Shown in pieces: positions 2,360-32,748 of a DNA stretch of 35,182 bases. The stretch lies in contig JADHOA010000008.1 in the NCBI GenBank assembly GCA_016779185.1, forward strand, positions 1-35,182. The letters are read 5' to 3'. Position numbers and translations under genes: made by a program. Within the stretch, counting starts at the first letter, position 1. Each line of letters begins with the position of its first letter. The notes beneath the pieces are model-generated. The model was not told the origin of the DNA. It saw only the letters and a program-made list of their open reading frames with translations, and made no database searches. The stretch is from Rubripirellula sp. (lineage in GTDB: Bacteria > Planctomycetota > Planctomycetia > Pirellulales > Pirellulaceae).

Positions 2360-4276
2360 ATGGTATCTAAAACTATCAGTTTTCAAGGTTTTCGGGTCGC
2401 GGCGTTGGAGAGTCGTCGTGCGGCCGATATGCAACGATTGATTGAGAAGTATGAAGGCGTGGCATATGTCAGCCCATCGATGCGCGAAGTACCGATTGAA
2501 CCAAATCGATCTGCAATTGACTTTGCTTACCGACTGATCACCGGACAGGTGAGCGTCGTCGTGCTGACCACTGGGGTCGGTTTTCGATACTTATTAAAAG
2601 CGATTGAACCACACCTTGATAAGCAGCGGTTCCTTGACTCGCTTTCTGATGTGATCACCGTCTGTCGTGGACCCAAGCCCGCAGCAGTGATGAGAGAATT
2701 TGGGCTGACACCTTCCCACCGAGTTCCAGAACCAAACACGTGGCGAGAATTGTTGCAGACGATTGACTCTGAGGTTCCGATCGCAAACCAAGTCGTAGGA
2801 TTGCAGGAATATGGAGTTAGCAACAAGTCTTTAATCGCGGGACTGGAGGCGCGAGGGGCCACCGTGGAGCCAGTCCAAGTTTATGGTTGGGATTTCCCCG
2901 TTGACTCGGGGCCTTTGGAAGAGAACGTGCGAGCGATTGCTGCCGGCGAACGCGATTTATTGCTCGTTACCAGTGCCCACCAGGTGGTCAATATGCTCCG
3001 AATGGCCGAGAAAATAGACTTCGTTGAAAAACTTCGAGAGGGGTTACGGGGTACGGTGATCGCTTCAATCGGACCTACAACCTCACAAATGCTGGAAGAA
3101 TGTGAGATTCATGTTGATCTAGAACCCTCGCACCCGAAGATGGGACATCTTGTCGTTGAGACCGCGGAAACTGGAGTTCCCCTGATCGGATCAAAACGAC
3201 GTTGGCAACTCATGATCCCACAATCCCAACCCATGAAACATCCATCAGACGACAGTTTATTCATTCGAGCCTGTCGAGGTGAAAAAACCGAACGAACTCC
3301 TGTTTGGCTCATGAGACAGGCGGGTCGTTACATGCAGGAATATCGCGAGGTTCGAGCAAAGCACTCGTTTCTAGAGCTTTGCCACAATCCGCAGCTGTGC
3401 AGTGAAGTGATGTGTACGGCAGTCGATCGACTAGGCGTGGACGCCGCGATTATCTTCTCGGATTTGCTGCCTATTCTTGTCCCACTAGGTTTCGATCTGG
3501 AGTTTGCAGCCGGTGATGGTCCGGTTATCCATAATCCCGTTCGAGATCGACAAGGTGTAAACCAAGTCAGGGAGTTGCAGGAGCCTCAGGAGCTGGATTT
3601 TGTCTACGAGACCGTGCGCCAAACACGACAGGATTTACCGGACGGAATTCCTGTGATCGGTTTTGCTGGATCTCCATTTACTCTCGCAAGTTATGCGATC
3701 GAGGGTGGTGGTAGTCGAACCTATTTGCACACCAAGAGACTCATGCGTTCGAATGACGGTTCTTGGGAAGTGCTAATGGAAAAGCTCTCATTTGCCATCA
3801 CTTCTTATCTGAATTTCCAGATCGCTGCAGGTGCGCAGTGTGTCCAGCTATTCGACAGTTGGGCCGGATGCTTATCGTCGAGTGACTATGTTCGTTTCGT
3901 GCTGCCTTGGATGAAGCAAATCATTGCTGGAATTACCCCCGGGGTTCCGGTAATCAATTTCGCGACCGGTAATCCTGAGCTTCTTCCGCTTTTAAAAATG
4001 GATCGCCGAACCGTTGTTGGGGTGGATTGGCGCATCCCGCTTGATGTGGCTTGGAAACGAATTGGCCATGACGTTTCGGTTCAAGGGAATCTTGATCCGG
4101 CGATTTTATTAGCTGACCCCGAGGTGATCCGTGAGGAAGTAAGTCAATTACTTGCTTCAGTGGCGGGGCGGGACGGGCATATTTTTAATCTTGGGCATGG
4201 CATCCATAAGGAAACCCCCGTGGATCACGCGATTGCACTCGTCGAATCGGTCAAGGAATTGTCTCGACGCGATTGA
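2360..4276 (+). CDS. hemE: Fused uroporphyrinogen-III synthase / uroporphyrinogen decarboxylase (HemD-HemE)
   Basis: This 638-residue protein appears to join two successive haem-pathway enzymes. Residues 1 to about 265 look like HemD, which closes hydroxymethylbilane to uroporphyrinogen III: T-T-G-V-G-F near 70, L-L-L-V-T-S-A-H-Q near 200, and the late I-A-S-I-G-P-T-T-S motif with H-P-K-M-G-H-L near its end. A linker of about 25 residues follows. Residues 292-638 (347 aa, normal HemE length) are uroporphyrinogen decarboxylase, with L-M-R-Q-A-G-R-Y (Arg319, Arg323), I-I-F-S-D-L-L with the catalytic Asp368, G-F-A-G-S-P-F-T-L-A-S-Y, and the late L-G-H-G-I-H motif. The frame is continuous across the join. 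A separate HemE start at 3233 is possible but lacks a clear ribosome binding site. HemE is certain; HemD is likely. Confidence 0.92.
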   Translation: MVSKTISFQGFRVAALESRRAADMQRLIEKYEGVAYVSPSMREVPIEPNRSAIDFAYRLITGQVSVVVLTTGVGFRYLLKAIEPHLDKQRFLDSLSDVITVCRGPKPAAVMREFGLTPSHRVPEPNTWRELLQTIDSEVPIANQVVGLQEYGVSNKSLIAGLEARGATVEPVQVYGWDFPVDSGPLEENVRAIAAGERDLLLVTSAHQVVNMLRMAEKIDFVEKLREGLRGTVIASIGPTTSQMLEECEIHVDLEPSHPKMGHLVVETAETGVPLIGSKRRWQLMIPQSQPMKHPSDDSLFIRACRGEKTERTPVWLMRQAGRYMQEYREVRAKHSFLELCHNPQLCSEVMCTAVDRLGVDAAIIFSDLLPILVPLGFDLEFAAGDGPVIHNPVRDRQGVNQVRELQEPQELDFVYETVRQTRQDLPDGIPVIGFAGSPFTLASYAIEGGGSRTYLHTKRLMRSNDGSWEVLMEKLSFAITSYLNFQIAAGAQCVQLFDSWAGCLSSSDYVRFVLPWMKQIIAGITPGVPVINFATGNPELLPLLKMDRRTVVGVDWRIPLDVAWKRIGHDVSVQGNLDPAILLADPEVIREEVSQLLASVAGRDGHIFNLGHGIHKETPVDHAIALVESVKELSRRD

Positions 4277-11998: not shown

Positions 11999-12266
11999 AA
12001 CAATCATGTTCTGCCCGTTGGCTTGATTGCTTATTTCACAACCAATGTGTTTTGCTAGCAGCGATGGGATTCATGGGCGACTCGAAGTGGAGCTTCCTTT
12101 TTTTCTAGCTGACATTGACTTGACTTACTGACCTTATCTAACGTCCCAGACTAGAGTTCGTCGGGCGATGTTTTCGCGTCGGCACTGCGGAGTTAGGTTC
12201 AATAACCTAGTTTGAAAGTTCGTTGGCGGGTCGTGTGAGACCTGTGTTCCAGTGAAGGTTGCAAGG
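11999..12266. other. Intergenic region upstream of the Ser/Thr-rich lipoprotein gene
   Basis: After the glt terminator about 270 bases carry no gene. TTGACT occurs twice in tandem at 12115-12125, but no well-spaced -10 box follows, so I do not call a promoter. GAAGG about 8 bases before the ATG at 12267 is a reasonable ribosome binding site for the next gene. Confidence 0.4.
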
Positions 12267-13184
12267 ATGCATAAGAAAACGGTTCAAACGAGACTGCCTA
12301 TTGCGTTAACGCTGTTGGTGACTGGTTTCCTTTTCACCGGATGCCGCAGTTTTCCGGGGTCCAGCTTATTGGGTTGGAATAAAGAACCTTCACCAGAAGT
12401 TTTAGCTAACGCCGGACCGGCAGTTACCTACCCTGCCCCGCCAAACGCAAATGCAACGCCTCAGAGTATCGCATCGGTTGCGGGCGGTACCAATTTGCCC
12501 GATTTGGAGATCGATGACGGCGATTTAATCACTCCGCAATTTACCAATACAGCTTCGGACACATCATTCCAGCACGTTGCGAGCACTGACTCCACCGTCA
12601 CCAATCTAGCTGCAGCTCGTGCAAATGGCTTTGCATCACCCGAGCAGGGCTCGATGGCGAGTGATTCTTATCGCGGTCAGCAGAGCACTTCCGGGGGCGA
12701 AGCGTATGCTTTTGGTGACAGAGCTTTCACACCTAAACCAGCCACCGCAGGTTCTTCGTTTGAGTCGGAATCAACAATGGTGCTTCCGACTGCTAGCAGC
12801 GTCGCTCAGGTAGGATCCAGTAATCTCACCAACGGTTTTACACCACCTTCTACAGTGACGGCGAGCGACCCTGTAATGGCGGGTAACACGACGACTGGGT
12901 TTACGCTTCCTACTGACTCTCCATCGTTTGCTAGGATTGAACCATCTTCAAGCAGTACCAGCGGTCCGACTAGTGAAGTCGCCGCAGCAAATTCCTCAAT
13001 CGTGGATTACACAACTGCAAGTCGGTCGAGTGATTTTGCGTCGTCTACCACGGATCAGATTCTCCCGCCAACGGAACCGGTTTCTGAATCGCCAGCCGGG
13101 TATTCTCCGGGTAGTACTGCTTCACGCGTGTCTTATCCAACGAGTACTTCAACACCCACTACCAGCGGTTCTTTTTTCCGGTAG
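12267..13184 (+). CDS. Putative lipoprotein with Ser/Thr-rich low-complexity body
   Basis: I do not recognise a family. From the ATG at 12267 the protein has 305 residues. It opens with basic residues, a hydrophobic stretch and a lipobox ending L-F-T-G-C, so Cys26 would be lipidated after signal peptidase II cleavage. The remaining 280 residues or so are dominated by Ser, Thr, Ala, Pro and Gly, with no cysteine and no visible enzyme motif, and end in S-G-S-F-F-R. This resembles a disordered or surface-exposed envelope protein. A GTG at 12252 in frame would add five residues, but the ATG has the better-spaced ribosome binding site. The gene stands alone between the glt terminator and convergent pyrK. 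Lipoprotein call is good; role is unknown. Confidence 0.75.
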   Translation: MHKKTVQTRLPIALTLLVTGFLFTGCRSFPGSSLLGWNKEPSPEVLANAGPAVTYPAPPNANATPQSIASVAGGTNLPDLEIDDGDLITPQFTNTASDTSFQHVASTDSTVTNLAAARANGFASPEQGSMASDSYRGQQSTSGGEAYAFGDRAFTPKPATAGSSFESESTMVLPTASSVAQVGSSNLTNGFTPPSTVTASDPVMAGNTTTGFTLPTDSPSFARIEPSSSSTSGPTSEVAAANSSIVDYTTASRSSDFASSTTDQILPPTEPVSESPAGYSPGSTASRVSYPTSTSTPTTSGSFFR

Positions 13185-27848: not shown

Positions 27849-28881
27849 CTAGGTTCTTTTTTAGCTCGGCCCAAAAGGTCTCCACGTTTTCACTGCGGAT
27901 TTGATCTGCTTCGATATTCAAAAATCCGCTTTCAGGAATGCCGAGGTCCGTAAGCGATTCTCCACGAACTAGCCCCGCAAGTACTCGAACTGACTGACGA
28001 CCATACTCATAAGGATTTTGAACCACCGTGCCGTGTACATTACCGTCGATGATACCCTGCAAGGTTTCATCTGCTTCATCGAATCCGATTACCTGAACAT
28101 CACCCAGTTTATCCGCCTGCTTGAGGGCTTCCAAAATTAAGGGTGGGTTATAAGCAAACAATCCAACCATGCCTCCCAGATCTGGATGACGCGACAATGC
28201 ATCCTCTGCGTTAGATTTTCCTTGGGCTCGATCGAACTGGTCGGTGTAGGTTCCAACAATATGCCAGTTTCCCTCTTTGATCTCGGCATCTGGCAGATCA
28301 AACCGCGATGGGTCTTCCGATCTTCCCAGGATGGCGTCGATCACGCCCTGCCGTCGTCGCTTTGCGTTGTCTTGTTCCAAGCGTCCAATGAAGATTGCCA
28401 ATTTACCGCCGTTCGGCATCGCTTCTTTTACCAGTTCACCACACATTCGACCCGCTAGGTAGTTATCCATTCCTATATAGCAAAGACGATTCGAGTCAGG
28501 AGCGTCACTGTCGTGCGTGATTAATTTCGTGTACTTAGATGCTTGGTTGAGCAGTTCCGTTTGATTGACAGGGTCAATTGGGCTGACAGCTATGCCGTCG
28601 ATCCCTTTTGTGATCAGGTCTTCAATCATTCGTTTCTGATCACTGATCCCTTCTGCTGGCATCAAAACTTGGGTCTCAGCATCAAAGTCTTCGCCCCCTT
28701 GCTTGACGCCAGACTCTGCAATTACCCAGAAGGACGCCACACCGTTGGTGACGTATGCCACTTTCGGTTTATCGTTCACACCGTTGGCCTGGTCGTCACC
28801 TGCGGACGGAGAAGAGGGGTTGCAGCCAATCGAGAAAAGACACAACAAAGCGAAGGCCTGAAGCCAGAACGAGCGTTTCAT
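27838..28881 (-). CDS. Sugar-binding lipoprotein of the ABC importer (RbsB-like)
   Basis: This 347-residue periplasmic binding protein would capture the sugar and deliver it to the permease. It starts with a signal peptide and lipobox, L-F-S-I-G-C, so Cys20 is probably lipidated, followed by a Ser/Pro/Gly-rich linker. E. coli RbsB and XylF are soluble, so anchoring is a difference worth noting. The type 1 fold is visible as K-V-A-Y-V-T-N-G-V at about 39, the aromatic F-W-V-I-A-E-S segment, T-H-D-S-D-A near 140, I-G-M-D-N-Y-L-A-G, and the hinge Q-V-I-G-F-D-E-A-D. It is the first gene of the binding protein-ATPase-permease operon and overlaps the ATPase gene. Confidence 0.93.
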   Translation of the reverse strand: MKRSFWLQAFALLCLFSIGCNPSSPSAGDDQANGVNDKPKVAYVTNGVASFWVIAESGVKQGGEDFDAETQVLMPAEGISDQKRMIEDLITKGIDGIAVSPIDPVNQTELLNQASKYTKLITHDSDAPDSNRLCYIGMDNYLAGRMCGELVKEAMPNGGKLAIFIGRLEQDNAKRRRQGVIDAILGRSEDPSRFDLPDAEIKEGNWHIVGTYTDQFDRAQGKSNAEDALSRHPDLGGMVGLFAYNPPLILEALKQADKLGDVQVIGFDEADETLQGIIDGNVHGTVVQNPYEYGRQSVRVLAGLVRGESLTDLGIPESGFLNIEADQIRSENVETFWAELKKNLGEQ

Positions 28882-29321
28882 GGGTGATGCTGCAAATGAA
28901 GGTGTGGGATCTGAATAGTGAGCAATGGAGAAGAAATCGTCGCCTCGGGCTAGATGTGTTGTGAGATCGGATCAGCAACAGAGCCAGAGGTTCAGGATGT
29001 ATTGCATCCAAAGTAGGCGGGAGAACGTGTCGGCTCGGTCGAAACTGTCTTGCAGCAAGAAATCACCAACGATTCATTGGGGTTTTGAATCAACATGGAA
29101 GCCCAAGGCAAATCGACCACTCCAAGTTATAAGGAGGGACGCGTGTAATCGCAAGGATTCTGTGCCGACAGTTCCTAATCGGTAGGCGACCGTTTCGAGT
29201 GTGACTTCGCGAATGGCTATTTTTTGCGGGATATTTCCGATTAAACAGAATCAGCCTCCCGCATGATTCTTTGGGAGGCTGATTTTCAATATTAATATTC
29301 GTGGAGTTCAGCGGCTGCTGC
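28882..29321. other. Intergenic region upstream of the sugar transporter operon
   Basis: This 440-base stretch has no recognisable gene. It should hold the promoter and regulatory sites of the transporter operon (minus strand) and, at its far end, the 3' hairpin of the coiled-coil protein gene. No regulator gene of the sugar operon is next to it. Frames of 86 and 71 codons here look random. Confidence 0.5.
29249..29284 (-). terminator. Terminator hairpin after the coiled-coil protein gene
   Basis: AATCAGCCTCCC at 29249-29260 pairs perfectly over 12 bp with GGGAGGCTGATT at 29273-29284 across a 12-base loop. It starts 38 bases after the stop of the minus-strand gene ending at 29322. The minus-strand tail is CTGTTTAATC, with only a weak T-tract; the plus-strand side reads GATTTTC. 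The stem is strong, so a terminator or a 3' stability hairpin is likely. Confidence 0.7.
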
Positions 29322-30800
29322 TCACGGTTCGAGCACCTTATTTCCCTGTTGCATACGCTCACGCTGAGCTTCATAGATGGGAGCCCGATCGTTCGGCAAT
29401 CGCCTTGAATCGATCGACGTTTCAGGCGGGAAATCTTCTCCTCGCACCGCAGACCCGAGAGGCGTCGTGACGGTGTCATCGATCGTCTTTAGATAAGCTT
29501 CAAGTTTCCAAGCAGGGATCACGGTGAGGCCTAGTTCAGCGGCGCGTGCTTTCACATTACCCATTGTTGCGATTACAGCGGCGTTTTGATCGTTGCTTGC
29601 GTCGGGGTCTTGTCCGACTACGAGGAAACGGATGGTGGGGTCGAGTTGTCCTGTGACTGCCCCTGTCGATGAAATCTCTGCAGCCACCTGAGCTCCAGCA
29701 GCTAAGATTTGCCCTTTGATCGCAGCATTGTCATTACGTCCATCACCATCAATGTCGATATCGCCAGCCAAAGCGATCTTTACGACACGCCCCGGAGCCC
29801 AGAACGGCGAGAAAATCTTATCTCCCGGAATGATTGGACTCGAAATGTCTGGTCGAGCGACAACACGACCTAGGGCCAAGTGTGGCCCTTGTACTTGGCT
29901 AACTTGAATGGTTGCTTTGACTTTCGCATCTTGAAGCCGAGTTTCATCGCCATCAATCACCCCAAAAGTAACTCCCGGTCGGAGTTCGTCTGCGGACCCG
30001 AGATTGATCGTGACAACGTTTCCCCCAGCAACCACGTACCGGACCTCACCTTGAGTGGTTTCAAATTTGTCGGCACGAAGTTGATTGAGTTGAAGCTTCT
30101 GAGTGTTAATCGTACTCTGCATTTGCTTTGTTTTGCTAACCAGTTGGTTTGCTTCCGTCCTTGCCGTTTGTCGGAATGAATCGAAGTCCTGAGAGGTCTT
30201 GGTTAGCTTGTCTCTATTTTTCTCGTTGTCCTCATTCATTCGCGCGCGATCTTCATCGAACTGTTGTGAAAGCGTTGCTACTTTCTTGTTGGCATCGTCA
30301 CGTTCCTGCTCAGCAAGTTGCTGCTGTGTCCTGGCGTTTTCAATGTCTGCGTCAGCGTCGGTGCGGATTTTGGTCGCTTCATCTCGCGCCATCCCATACT
30401 GCTCGTTCCTGGAGCGGATCGCAGTCACGAGATATTCTGGGAGTGCGGGGTAGTTGCGGTTTTGTGCCTCAACTTCGGCTCCGAAATACGACATATCCTT
30501 TGCATACTGATCCTCGATCGCCTGCATCTCAGGGTCTTCAGAGGCGTTTTGCTTCATTTCGTCGATTTCCGCCTGAGTAAATCCCCCGATTCCCAGCATG
30601 GCTTTTAAGCGTTGAAGCTGATTTTCCTTTGTGGAGACGTCTCTTTGAACGTTGGCTAGTCGATCACCCGCCGAAGTCGCGTCAGCGCTTGATGTATTGG
30701 CCGATCGCCAAAGGAAGAAATTCAGCGCAAGGGAGAGCACCAAAAAGATAAGGCAGGCAATTAAGCTGCCGCGAATGACTGAATCGTCGCGAGCCACCAT
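29322..30800 (-). CDS. Membrane-anchored coiled-coil protein of unknown function
   Basis: I do not recognise a named family. The 492-residue protein has a short basic start and one membrane segment at about 11-31, so most of it is outside the cytoplasm. Residues 45-80 and about 135-245 are heptad-like, rich in Glu, Lys, Gln and Ala, and should form coiled coils. From about 248 to 345 is a beta-rich domain (G-E-V-R-Y-V-V-A-G-G, V-T-I-N-L-G-S-A-D-E-L-R-P-G) like small barrels in envelope proteins. A calcium-loop-like motif D-x-D-x-D-G-x-x-D is at 349-357. Residues 388-440 (I-R-F-L-V-V-G-Q-D-P...A-E-L-G-L-T-V-I-P-A-W-K-L) faintly recall a BRCT-type fold. It is divergent from the pseudopilin genes and may be functionally tied to them, but that is only context. 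Confidence 0.8.
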   Translation of the reverse strand: MVARDDSVIRGSLIACLIFLVLSLALNFFLWRSANTSSADATSAGDRLANVQRDVSTKENQLQRLKAMLGIGGFTQAEIDEMKQNASEDPEMQAIEDQYAKDMSYFGAEVEAQNRNYPALPEYLVTAIRSRNEQYGMARDEATKIRTDADADIENARTQQQLAEQERDDANKKVATLSQQFDEDRARMNEDNEKNRDKLTKTSQDFDSFRQTARTEANQLVSKTKQMQSTINTQKLQLNQLRADKFETTQGEVRYVVAGGNVVTINLGSADELRPGVTFGVIDGDETRLQDAKVKATIQVSQVQGPHLALGRVVARPDISSPIIPGDKIFSPFWAPGRVVKIALAGDIDIDGDGRNDNAAIKGQILAAGAQVAAEISSTGAVTGQLDPTIRFLVVGQDPDASNDQNAAVIATMGNVKARAAELGLTVIPAWKLEAYLKTIDDTVTTPLGSAVRGEDFPPETSIDSRRLPNDRAPIYEAQRERMQQGNKVLEP

Positions 30801-31312
30801 AGTTCTTCAGTGCGATCGAGTAGGCGGGATGATGAAGCAGCAAAAACCAAAAAACTGGCAAGTCTTTTACCAGAACTGCCTCAATATAATATTTACACCA
30901 GACTATCATTCTAGTTTGTGACGGGCGGATTTCCCGAACCTCTCGGAAGATTCTTTGGACTTTTACTGTTGCTTACCAACAGCGGTCGGCCATTTACTTC
31001 CGAATACACTACAAACACCCACGTCTTACTATGAGCAGTAGCTTGATATTTGACTGGTGGAGGTGGACATCTGTTTACATTTGGTTGCAGGGTCAATCCC
31101 CGTAACCGTGAAAACAGGAGTCCTTGAGAGATTTCGTCCGATTGAGTTCGGAACCTTCGACGAAAACGTCGGTTATTAGGAAATAGCAAGTCGTCGCGGT
31201 CAATACATACCTCAGGTTGGGGGCGTCCGTGGATATTACCCTTGCTTCCAGCACAGATCCGCCGTTCCGTTTCTGTTTTGTTCACACTTTTAATTAGTAC
31301 CGCTACAAAATA
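30801..31312. other. Divergent intergenic region between the coiled-coil gene and gspG
   Basis: This 512-base region has to carry both promoters. An AT-rich island around 30883-30902 (AATATAATATTTAC) stands out and could supply a minus-strand -10 box, but no good -35 is at the right distance. A 135-codon minus-strand frame at 30911-31318 fills most of it, but it has no signal, domain or ribosome binding site and overlaps gspG, so I treat it as chance. Confidence 0.5.
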
Positions 31313-31744
31313 ATGCAATCACGTCCACAGCATCGTCACCGTAAAGTGACCCGCCCACGTACCGGCTTTACTCTGCTTGAGCTTCTCTTGGTTCTTGCGA
31401 TTCTTGTCGTGATCGGGGGCATTGCCCTGCCGAACTTCCTCGGTGCTGGTCAGGAAGCGAAGGCAAACGCTACAAAAGTTCAGCTGAATTCGCTGAAGCA
31501 GAGCATTGACTTGTTCCAAGTTCGAATGAACAAACTGCCTGAAACTTTGGAAGAGCTTAGGGATGGGCCAAGTGACGCTGCTGGAAAGGCAAAGTGGGTA
31601 GCGCCAATCATTTCGGAAATCCCTACCGACGCTTGGGAAAATGCACTCACCTATTCGAAGAATGGGAACACTTATGAATTGCGAAGTGCAGGGATTGATG
31701 GTCAGGTCAACACCGACGATGACATCCTGCTTGAAGGAGCATAG
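31313..31744 (+). CDS. gspG: Type II secretion major pseudopilin (GspG-like)
   Basis: This 143-residue protein would be the main subunit of the type II secretion pseudopilus. The prepilin signal is clear: a basic leader, then R-T-G with cleavage after Gly18 before F-T-L-L-E, giving Phe19 as residue 1 and Glu23 as the conserved +5 glutamate. A hydrophobic helix follows. The C-terminal part has the GspG pattern: P-T-D-A-W-E-N-A-L-T-Y, then Y-E-L-R-S-A-G-I-D-G and D-D-D-I, the region that binds calcium in GspG structures. The tryptophan and Asp-rich end are kept. It is followed by about 400 bases before the next pseudopilin gene, so it may be transcribed on its own. Confidence 0.92.
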   Translation: MQSRPQHRHRKVTRPRTGFTLLELLLVLAILVVIGGIALPNFLGAGQEAKANATKVQLNSLKQSIDLFQVRMNKLPETLEELRDGPSDAAGKAKWVAPIISEIPTDAWENALTYSKNGNTYELRSAGIDGQVNTDDDILLEGA

Positions 31745-32142
31745 ACAACTCCATTTTGTCGAGGGACTTTCGCTTCACTGACTGACTGACAGACTCGGTG
31801 GGCAATTGAAAGATCGTTTCAGCGTGGTCAGGCGGTACAGAGTTTAGTTGATCGAAGGCCTCGTTCCCGCCGTCTGCGAGATTCCTTACCTCTTGATTCA
31901 AGTTCAAACTTCGTGAAGCTTCGATGTTAGGAACTAGTGGGTTTAGCGTCGGTGATTCGATGCTTCCGATGGAACGCTGGGTTGGTGGAGGACATTCGAT
32001 TGGATCGCGAGCAAGAGTTCAGGCGTCCGACGACGCGTCAAAGGATGGCTTTAACGGGAGGATGTTTCTGGTCCGTTTAACGCAAGCAGTTGTGCGAGCT
32101 TTTGGTCAAACTTTGCAAGACTCAAGTTAGGGTTCGCAAATC
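31745..32142. other. Gap between gspG and gspH with an uncertain small frame
   Basis: This 398-base gap interrupts an otherwise tight pseudopilin run. It has a short CTGA-type tandem around 31778-31792. A 68-codon plus-strand frame at 31924-32130 ends 12 bases before gspH and could be a small gene, but it shows no signal peptide, membrane segment, known motif or clear ribosome binding site, so I do not call it. No terminator hairpin after gspG was found by eye. Confidence 0.4.
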
Positions 32143-32748
32143 GTGAAAAATAATTTAGCCTTCACTCTTCTCGAGTTACTTCTCACTCTTGCGGTTCTTG
32201 CTGCCTTGACCGCTGTCGCAATCCCGCAAGTTGGGCTTTTAGCGGGAGATCGTCGTCTTGTTCGGGGTGGTGATTTACTACGCGTCGAAATGACTCGACT
32301 GAGGGTTGATGCGATGCGTGAAGGTCGAGTCTTGATGCTGGAAGGTTTATTAGAAGGCAATTCGTTTCGAACTCGCCCTTACTATTCAGCCAGCGATGCT
32401 ACCGAGGCTTTGGACCAAACGGGAACGCAGACTAGTCTGTTGACTGGCGCATCGGAGGGGGTGGTTACCATTCTGGAGCAACCATCAGAGTCGCAAGAAT
32501 CGATTGATCTACCAGAAGATATTACTGTCGAAGCGGTTGGTGTTGTGTCGGCCGCCAGGTCGATGGAGATCGAGCAGTTAACGGAGTCTGATCGGTCTGA
32601 GGGTTGGAGTCGGCCAATTTTGTTCTACCCGGATGGTTCCACAAGCACCGCAGTGGTGACCTTATCAAATCCAAAGTTGGGACGAATCGTGGTTCGATTA
32701 CGTGGTATTACGGGTGATGTGACCGTGAGTGAGGTTTTGCCGCTGTGA
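32143..32748 (+). CDS. gspH: Type II secretion minor pseudopilin (GspH-like)
   Basis: This 201-residue protein is a prepilin: short leader M-K-N-N-L-A, then F-T-L-L-E-L-L-L-T-L-A with Glu11 at mature position +5. The residue before the cleavage site is Ala6, not the usual glycine. After the helix, a region with R-G-G-D-L-L-R-V-E-M-T-R-L-R-V-D-A-M-R-E-G fits the GspH pattern of a conserved helix with basic residues, and the late segment W-S-R-P-I-L-F-Y-P-D-G-S-T-S is the common GspH C-terminal block. The start is GTG. The last codons overlap the gspI start by four bases (GTGA). It would act with GspI, GspJ and GspK at the pseudopilus tip. Confidence 0.85.
   Translation: MKNNLAFTLLELLLTLAVLAALTAVAIPQVGLLAGDRRLVRGGDLLRVEMTRLRVDAMREGRVLMLEGLLEGNSFRTRPYYSASDATEALDQTGTQTSLLTGASEGVVTILEQPSESQESIDLPEDITVEAVGVVSAARSMEIEQLTESDRSEGWSRPILFYPDGSTSTAVVTLSNPKLGRIVVRLRGITGDVTVSEVLPL

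Follow-up and report, generated by a model that had tools for sequence, protein, structure and literature searches.

The BRCT fold has its usual home in DNA-repair proteins, and the domain is known from inside cells. In the titles and abstract openings of the openly licensed literature, we found no description of a planctomycete BRCT or of a periplasmic or membrane-anchored one. The closest working analogy to the protein family described here is SteB/MctB (Rv1698) of Mycobacteriales, which has a membrane helix, a coiled coil and a periplasmic core, the periplasmic part of SteB positioning a wall hydrolase (PMC12977500). Acidic loops with the motif Dx[DN]xDG are strongly biased to the periplasm, the cell surface or secretion, and the word BRCT is absent from the main text of the source on this motif (PMC3123361). 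Within the Planctomycetota, which are noted for division without FtsZ (PMC12283558), P. limnophila has 108 essential phylum-specific proteins of unknown function, and the type II secretion operon Plim_0401-0410 places planctomycete-restricted proteins of unknown function beside secretion genes (PMC10632474).

We analysed a 35,182-nucleotide stretch of a Rubripirellula genome (the window) in which the open reading frame list and translation give a 492-residue product on the minus strand (Table 1). This frame is a real, conserved gene that carries no annotation: in a 26-sequence alignment of full-length relatives, the M1 start and the order of the parts are kept, and the invariant residues other than M1 all lie in the head (G251, V256, G268, L273, K295, A309, P322, G326, D327, D353, D357, G369, A420 and G424). 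The assembly, 66% complete, contains no other family match. Searched alone against Pfam, NCBIfam and the PDB, the query gave just weak matches, mostly to coiled coils. It bears no Pfam or NCBIfam name; its constituent domains are already known. NCBIfam matches of the 26 full-length members to SMC, TrlF and similar models were set aside as helix-rich noise. The C-terminal tail is modelled by AlphaFold2 at a pLDDT of ∼39 to 54 per ten-residue block and is conserved little outside close relatives.

Table 1. Features of the family gene and its flanks, in window coordinates
Feature	Position	Strand	Basis
Family gene (492 aa: membrane anchor, stalk, barrel and BRCT head)	29322..30800	-	Open reading frame, translation, 26-sequence alignment
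N-terminal transmembrane helix, aa 11-31	30708..30770	-	Hydrophobic window in 72/73 relatives' rows
Modelled helical stalk, aa 33-244	30069..30704	-	AlphaFold2 model and TM-to-barrel distance in relatives
Predicted small beta barrel, aa 248-335	29796..30059	-	F1-ATPase N-terminal barrel match; weak FlgT_C matches
BRCT domain, aa ~339-440	29481..29786	-	hhalign, Pfam BRCT, strand/helix order, structural matches
EF-hand-like D-x-D-x-D-G-x-x-D loop, aa 349-357	29730..29756	-	Conserved acidic positions
C-terminal tail, aa 441-492, poorly ordered	29325..29480	-	Low pLDDT, low conservation
Intergenic region of 512 bases, family gene to divergent gspG	30801..31312	.	Sequence
Perfect 12-bp inverted repeat, possible terminator hairpin	29249..29284 (29249-29260 / 29273-29284)	.	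Read from sequence

The AlphaFold2 model of the full protein (mean pLDDT 75.6, pTM 0.38) predicts helices at residues 8 to 68, 76 to 84, 90 to 103 and 119 to 244, strands from residue 251 and an alpha/beta unit at 341 to 438. A preliminary description of this DNA had proposed one membrane anchor, a beta-rich module and long coiled coils. The model bears out the first two, with a single hydrophobic N-terminal helix (the membrane segment lies within helix 8-68) and a strand-rich part beginning at residue 251. The third fared less well: one long helix is indeed modelled, 119-244 being the longest, but it shows no strongly hydrophobic heptad register, the best having 36% hydrophobic residues at the a and d positions versus 29% overall. 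Among 73 relatives, the distance from the membrane segment to the barrel is 196 to 248 residues (median 209, standard deviation 10), a near-constant length that fits a spacer. In the hydrophobic-window and charge rows (n = 73), that of L022 is the wrong segment, and L003 is excluded, being without a start on its contig; the cysteine and stalk-length counts (n = 73) drop L022. Nine loci duplicating genomes with longer flanks were removed before the charge, cysteine, stalk-length and loop counts.

The beta module is predicted to fold as a small barrel like the one at the N terminus of F1-ATPase. In structural comparisons of the AlphaFold2 model, F1-ATPase subunit barrels matched at Z ∼9, and the strands after residue 251 resembled 5dn6_D at Z 9.3 (2.4 A over 76 residues). 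The Pfam model FlgT_C, searched at E up to 10, found 4 of 21 members, the strongest at 8.8e-4, and the query stayed under the cut-off for the FlgT C-terminal domain (PF16538), at 13.3 bits versus 27. The predicted small barrel is what the planctomycete family has in common with FlgT and F1-ATPase; unlike F1-ATPase, it has no catalytic domain.

Beyond the barrel lies a BRCT domain with an EF-hand-like loop inside it. The preliminary description had noted a weakly BRCT-like segment at residues 388 to 440; the likeness is real, but that segment is just the back half of a domain spanning residues ∼339 to 440. The evidence from sequence is firmer than that from structural matches. Using hhalign, we compared a profile of the family's BRCT part (62 of 64 sequences, L082 and L101 being omitted as near-duplicates) with 18 BRCT domains of the ligase type taken from relatives and assigned to LigA from length and sequence, and obtained a match of 97.8% with an E-value of 1.1e-12, which is a single-pair and not a database-scale value. 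These 18 came from 30 stretches, of which 11 ran past a stop codon and one more, L128, was also omitted. A head-only family profile scored 96.6% against the ligase-type domains, and the control folds RibH (five of six sequences) and CoaE (seven of eight) scored 0.7% and 1.2% against the family BRCT profile. Against the PDB, the family profile found the BRCT domains of DNA ligase (7.6e-4) and RFC1 (9.3e-4). At E up to 1, the Pfam BRCT model found 19 of the 62 members, the strongest at 7.3e-9; the query is not one of them. A relative in genome G025 exceeded the cut-off of this model (33.5 versus 21.3 bits). Other Pfam matches in this part, among them GT4-conflict, Flagellin_IN and MutS_IV, were weak and scattered over few members, and we rejected them.

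The modelled order of strands and helices is that of a BRCT domain, beta-alpha-beta-beta-alpha-beta-alpha (strands 341-345, 371-376, 390-395 and 426-429; helices 358-367, 404-423 and 430-438), with an extra short strand at 382-384 within a loop of the domain in the AlphaFold2 model. Residues 331 to 439 matched the BRCT of the ligase DnlJ in 9a6z_B, itself an integrative model, at Z 8.9 (1.8 A, 76 residues, 25% identity). When the BRCT part was modelled alone (pLDDT 83.5, pTM 0.74), the first nine rows of its structural list were BRCT domains of RFC1 or Rad4, with a best Z of 8.3, near values often reached by models without a clear match; RFC1 matched at Z 8.2 (2.4 A over 80 residues), and most of the best 50 matches listed were BRCT structures. 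Plain Foldseek on this model returned no match at E 0.001 or better; its best row was the Dbf4 BRCT (2.6e-3), and unrelated folds were interspersed with the BRCT rows. These comparisons establish the domain make-up of the head. The family shares with the LigA BRCT its strand-helix order, a G-G before strand 2 and a T-x-[YF]-L-V-x-G segment. It differs from it in being borne on a membrane stalk, in the insertion of an EF-hand-like loop after strand 1 and ahead of helix 1, in a longer variable loop ahead of helix 2, and in a strand-1 end without a conserved T.

Because of this kinship with ligase and RFC1 domains, we kept in play the reading that the head is cytoplasmic (N-out, C-in) and that its BRCT binds DNA or a replication or repair protein, tethering it to the membrane; we regard this as rather unlikely. 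In phospho-binding BRCT domains, strand 1 ends in the Ser or Thr of the phosphate pocket, although this is not required of every BRCT. In the family, the corresponding column 345 holds mostly A (23) and V (19), with S in 8 and T in 4 of 64 members, so that just 12 of 64 have Ser or Thr. Judged from these residues, the pocket speaks against ordinary phosphopeptide binding and, with it, against such a tether.

The acidic loop is an established, conserved feature. The D349-x-D351-x-D353-G354-x-x-D357 pattern given in the preliminary description is exact, and D353 and D357 are invariant in 26 of 26 aligned sequences. Of 64 members, 57 keep D, D/N, D/N and D at the four acidic positions, and 60 keep the first three. 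The loop lies between the first strand and the first helix of the BRCT domain, and we read it as an insert because L113 and L114, which are without it, show a compact BRCT sequence there. As in EF-hands and other Dx[DN]xDG loops, D-x-D-x-D-G-x-x-D is followed by a helix, and the family profile matched the EF-hand protein 1jfj at 8.1e-5 over the whole chain, the best single stretch reaching 0.85. Unlike an EF-hand, the loop is single and has no entering helix, and the query has no acidic residue at position 12; unlike other Dx[DN]xDG loops, it is embedded in a BRCT domain. We infer that the loop binds calcium.

Two features of the sequence, scarce cysteine and the calcium-type loop, suggest that the head lies outside the cytoplasm, and both count against a DNA-tethering head inside the cell, the loop because its motif is biased to the cell exterior (PMC3123361). 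The head has 9 cysteines in 15,478 residues (0.058%), and 65 of 73 members have none at all. As a yardstick, which consists of neighbouring gene families and window proteins and not of matched, proven periplasmic proteins, cysteine makes up 0.64 to 2.06% of nine neighbouring gene families (4 to 11 sequences each) and, among single window proteins, 0 to 0.65% of the pseudopilin-like ones, 0.39% of an RbsA-like cytoplasmic ATPase and 1.15% of an RbsB-like binding protein. A TolC-like window frame (452 aa) and 1 of 10 Rho sequences are free of cysteine too.

Charges flanking the membrane helix are weakly biased and lean slightly toward N-in, with a mean of 1.38 K/R versus 0.95 D/E in the N-tail and 3.03 versus 3.36 in the 20 residues after the helix. 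Many N-tails carry just one K/R, a point in favor of the cytoplasmic-head alternative. A short paralogue in genome G017 (L051:1516-2028, minus strand) encodes a headless protein of 170 residues that resembles residues 18 to 124 alone (36% identity) and has a longer N-tail; this tail, of ∼36 residues, ends in K-P-I-R-R-P-L-P-H ahead of the corresponding helix, and its K-P-I-R-R stretch also suggests an N-in orientation. A similar partial match occurs in a second genome (G010:C310:4544-4900).

The family is widespread in the Planctomycetota. Its head-only profile matched 227 of 294 sampled genomes of the phylum at E 0.001, which establishes the phylum-wide spread. Another count found it in 28 of 30 genomes, the window's own included, and patterns drawn from the query alone recovered 21 loci in named contigs, all from close relatives. 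What held of the preliminary suggestion is a membrane-anchored factor, widespread in the planctomycete genomes searched and including a BRCT domain. One family-level group, f47, has no match to the family gene in any of its 26 genomes, and the gene is therefore not needed everywhere in the phylum. Two contigs (G315:C64:15380-17561 and G088:C282:5121-6774) each carry two close family matches, suggesting tandem copies.

The other half of that suggestion, an accessory role in type II secretion alongside the divergently encoded pseudopilins, found no support across the phylum, and we consider it very improbable. In the window, the gene is divergent from gspG, as described; gspG lies 512 bases away at 31313-31744 (Pfam T2SSG, 7e-18), and behind gspG, Pfam recognizes one N_methyl, one T2SSJ (below cut-off) and one T2SSK gene, the gspI-like gene having no Pfam match at 0.001. 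Close relatives were taken as 24 loci of 53% identity or more, with L003 and L020 excluded since their contigs end on the gspG side; in 18 of the 22 informative loci, including Stieleria and Roseiconus, the head-to-head arrangement with gspG to gspK is kept. L016 to L019 are without gsp neighbors, and L008 shows the gspK edge alone. Beyond these relatives, tblastn with the window's gsp proteins, which diverged gsp genes may escape, found none beside the family gene in 30 more distant loci, a set in which L056 and L058 have fewer than 450 bases upstream and L095 and L096 come from f1, the family of the window itself. Outside the close relatives, the conserved gsp neighborhood is thus absent, the outcome that the preliminary description had named as refuting its suggestion, and the arrangement is confined to close relatives of the window.

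Gene content agrees with this. T2SSG is present in 278 of the 294 genomes; 217 have both genes, 10 the family alone, 61 T2SSG alone and 6 neither, giving no co-variation (Fisher p = 0.21). Of the 16 genomes lacking a T2SSG match, 10 have the family; it is missing from f47, in which 25 of 26 genomes have T2SSG. Among the matches listed for both genes (56 genomes, both lists being limited by E-value), every T2SSG gene is more than 10 kb from the family gene, one being 18.9 kb away, and the query has no Gsp match at E up to 10 in Pfam or NCBIfam. The family is therefore independent of type II secretion genes.

The most frequent neighbor of the family gene in the sampled genomes is polA, which would set the family apart from the Plim_0401-0410 operon; in P. 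limnophila, DNA polymerase I is Plim_3011 (PMC10632474). Among the matches listed, polA stands beside the family gene in 31 of 68 genomes from eight family-level groups, head-to-head in all 31. In 10 of the 68 the two genes share a contig but are more than 300 kb apart, and in 27 they are on different contigs, in some of these perhaps because of fragmented assemblies; in the window's assembly, too, polA is on another contig. The polA cluster was seen in 11 of 33 loci, and Pfam matches assign polA, coaE and rho to L054 and ribH to L053. This neighbor is the second reason for keeping the cytoplasmic DNA tether in play, but beyond polA sit coaE, rho and ribH, and the surroundings are therefore those of a general housekeeping neighborhood.

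In the flanking DNA, we found no sigma-70-like promoter at 28880-31320 (1.7 expected), five terminator-like sites in the same interval versus 2.6 expected, and nothing at Rfam gathering scores over 28800-32200. The inverted repeat in Table 1 lies between the family gene and a sugar-binding protein gene, and its loop of 12 exceeds the limit of the terminator scan. Comparison of window positions 30800 to 30920 with L002, L004 and L005 shows short conserved blocks upstream, TATTTACACCAG and CATTCTA, which may be a promoter region. Elsewhere in the window, a 638-residue frame at 2360-4276 (plus strand) is presumably a fusion of uroporphyrinogen-III synthase and uroporphyrinogen decarboxylase (HemD-HemE), and a Ser/Thr-rich frame of 310 residues at 12252-13184 (plus strand) has no Pfam match at 0.001.

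The explanation that we prefer, to which we give about an even chance, is a single-pass inner-membrane protein with a periplasmic stalk and a barrel-BRCT head that serves as a docking scaffold in the envelope. The short N-terminal tail would stay cytoplasmic and the long helical stalk would rise into the periplasm, bearing at its tip the small barrel and then the BRCT domain with its grafted calcium-type loop. The stalk would set the distance, calcium would stabilize the head, and the barrel-BRCT head would dock a partner protein or an envelope polymer; we infer this docking role, as we would any dimerization.

A narrower form of the docking scaffold, a regulator of peptidoglycan hydrolases like SteB/MctB of Mycobacteriales, strikes us as distinctly unlikely. 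The order of parts is similar, with an N-terminal membrane helix, a coiled coil and a periplasmic core (PMC12977500), and the BRCT parts of 2 of 62 members match Pfam MctB weakly (best 0.0035). These matches carry little weight because the same model matched 10 of 14 control genomes at E 10, over the cut-off in one. The query has no match to MctB (PF11382), the window's genome has none at E 10, and no hydrolase was found among the recurrent neighbors searched. The family's neighbors differ from those of SteB/MctB, and the accessible parts of the SteB account mention neither a barrel nor a calcium loop (PMC12977500).

With this analysis, a widely conserved planctomycete protein gains an identity, and a tempting lead toward secretion is corrected, the gsp neighborhood being restricted to the window's close relatives. 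Our broader proposal, offered tentatively and at somewhat less than an even chance, is that in the Planctomycetota a BRCT domain came to serve as a widespread envelope scaffold, extracytoplasmic, loaded with calcium and carried by a barrel and a stalk of ∼200 residues. Should the head truly lie outside, this would be a case of BRCT function remote from DNA, with a concrete handle on how the planctomycete envelope is organized.
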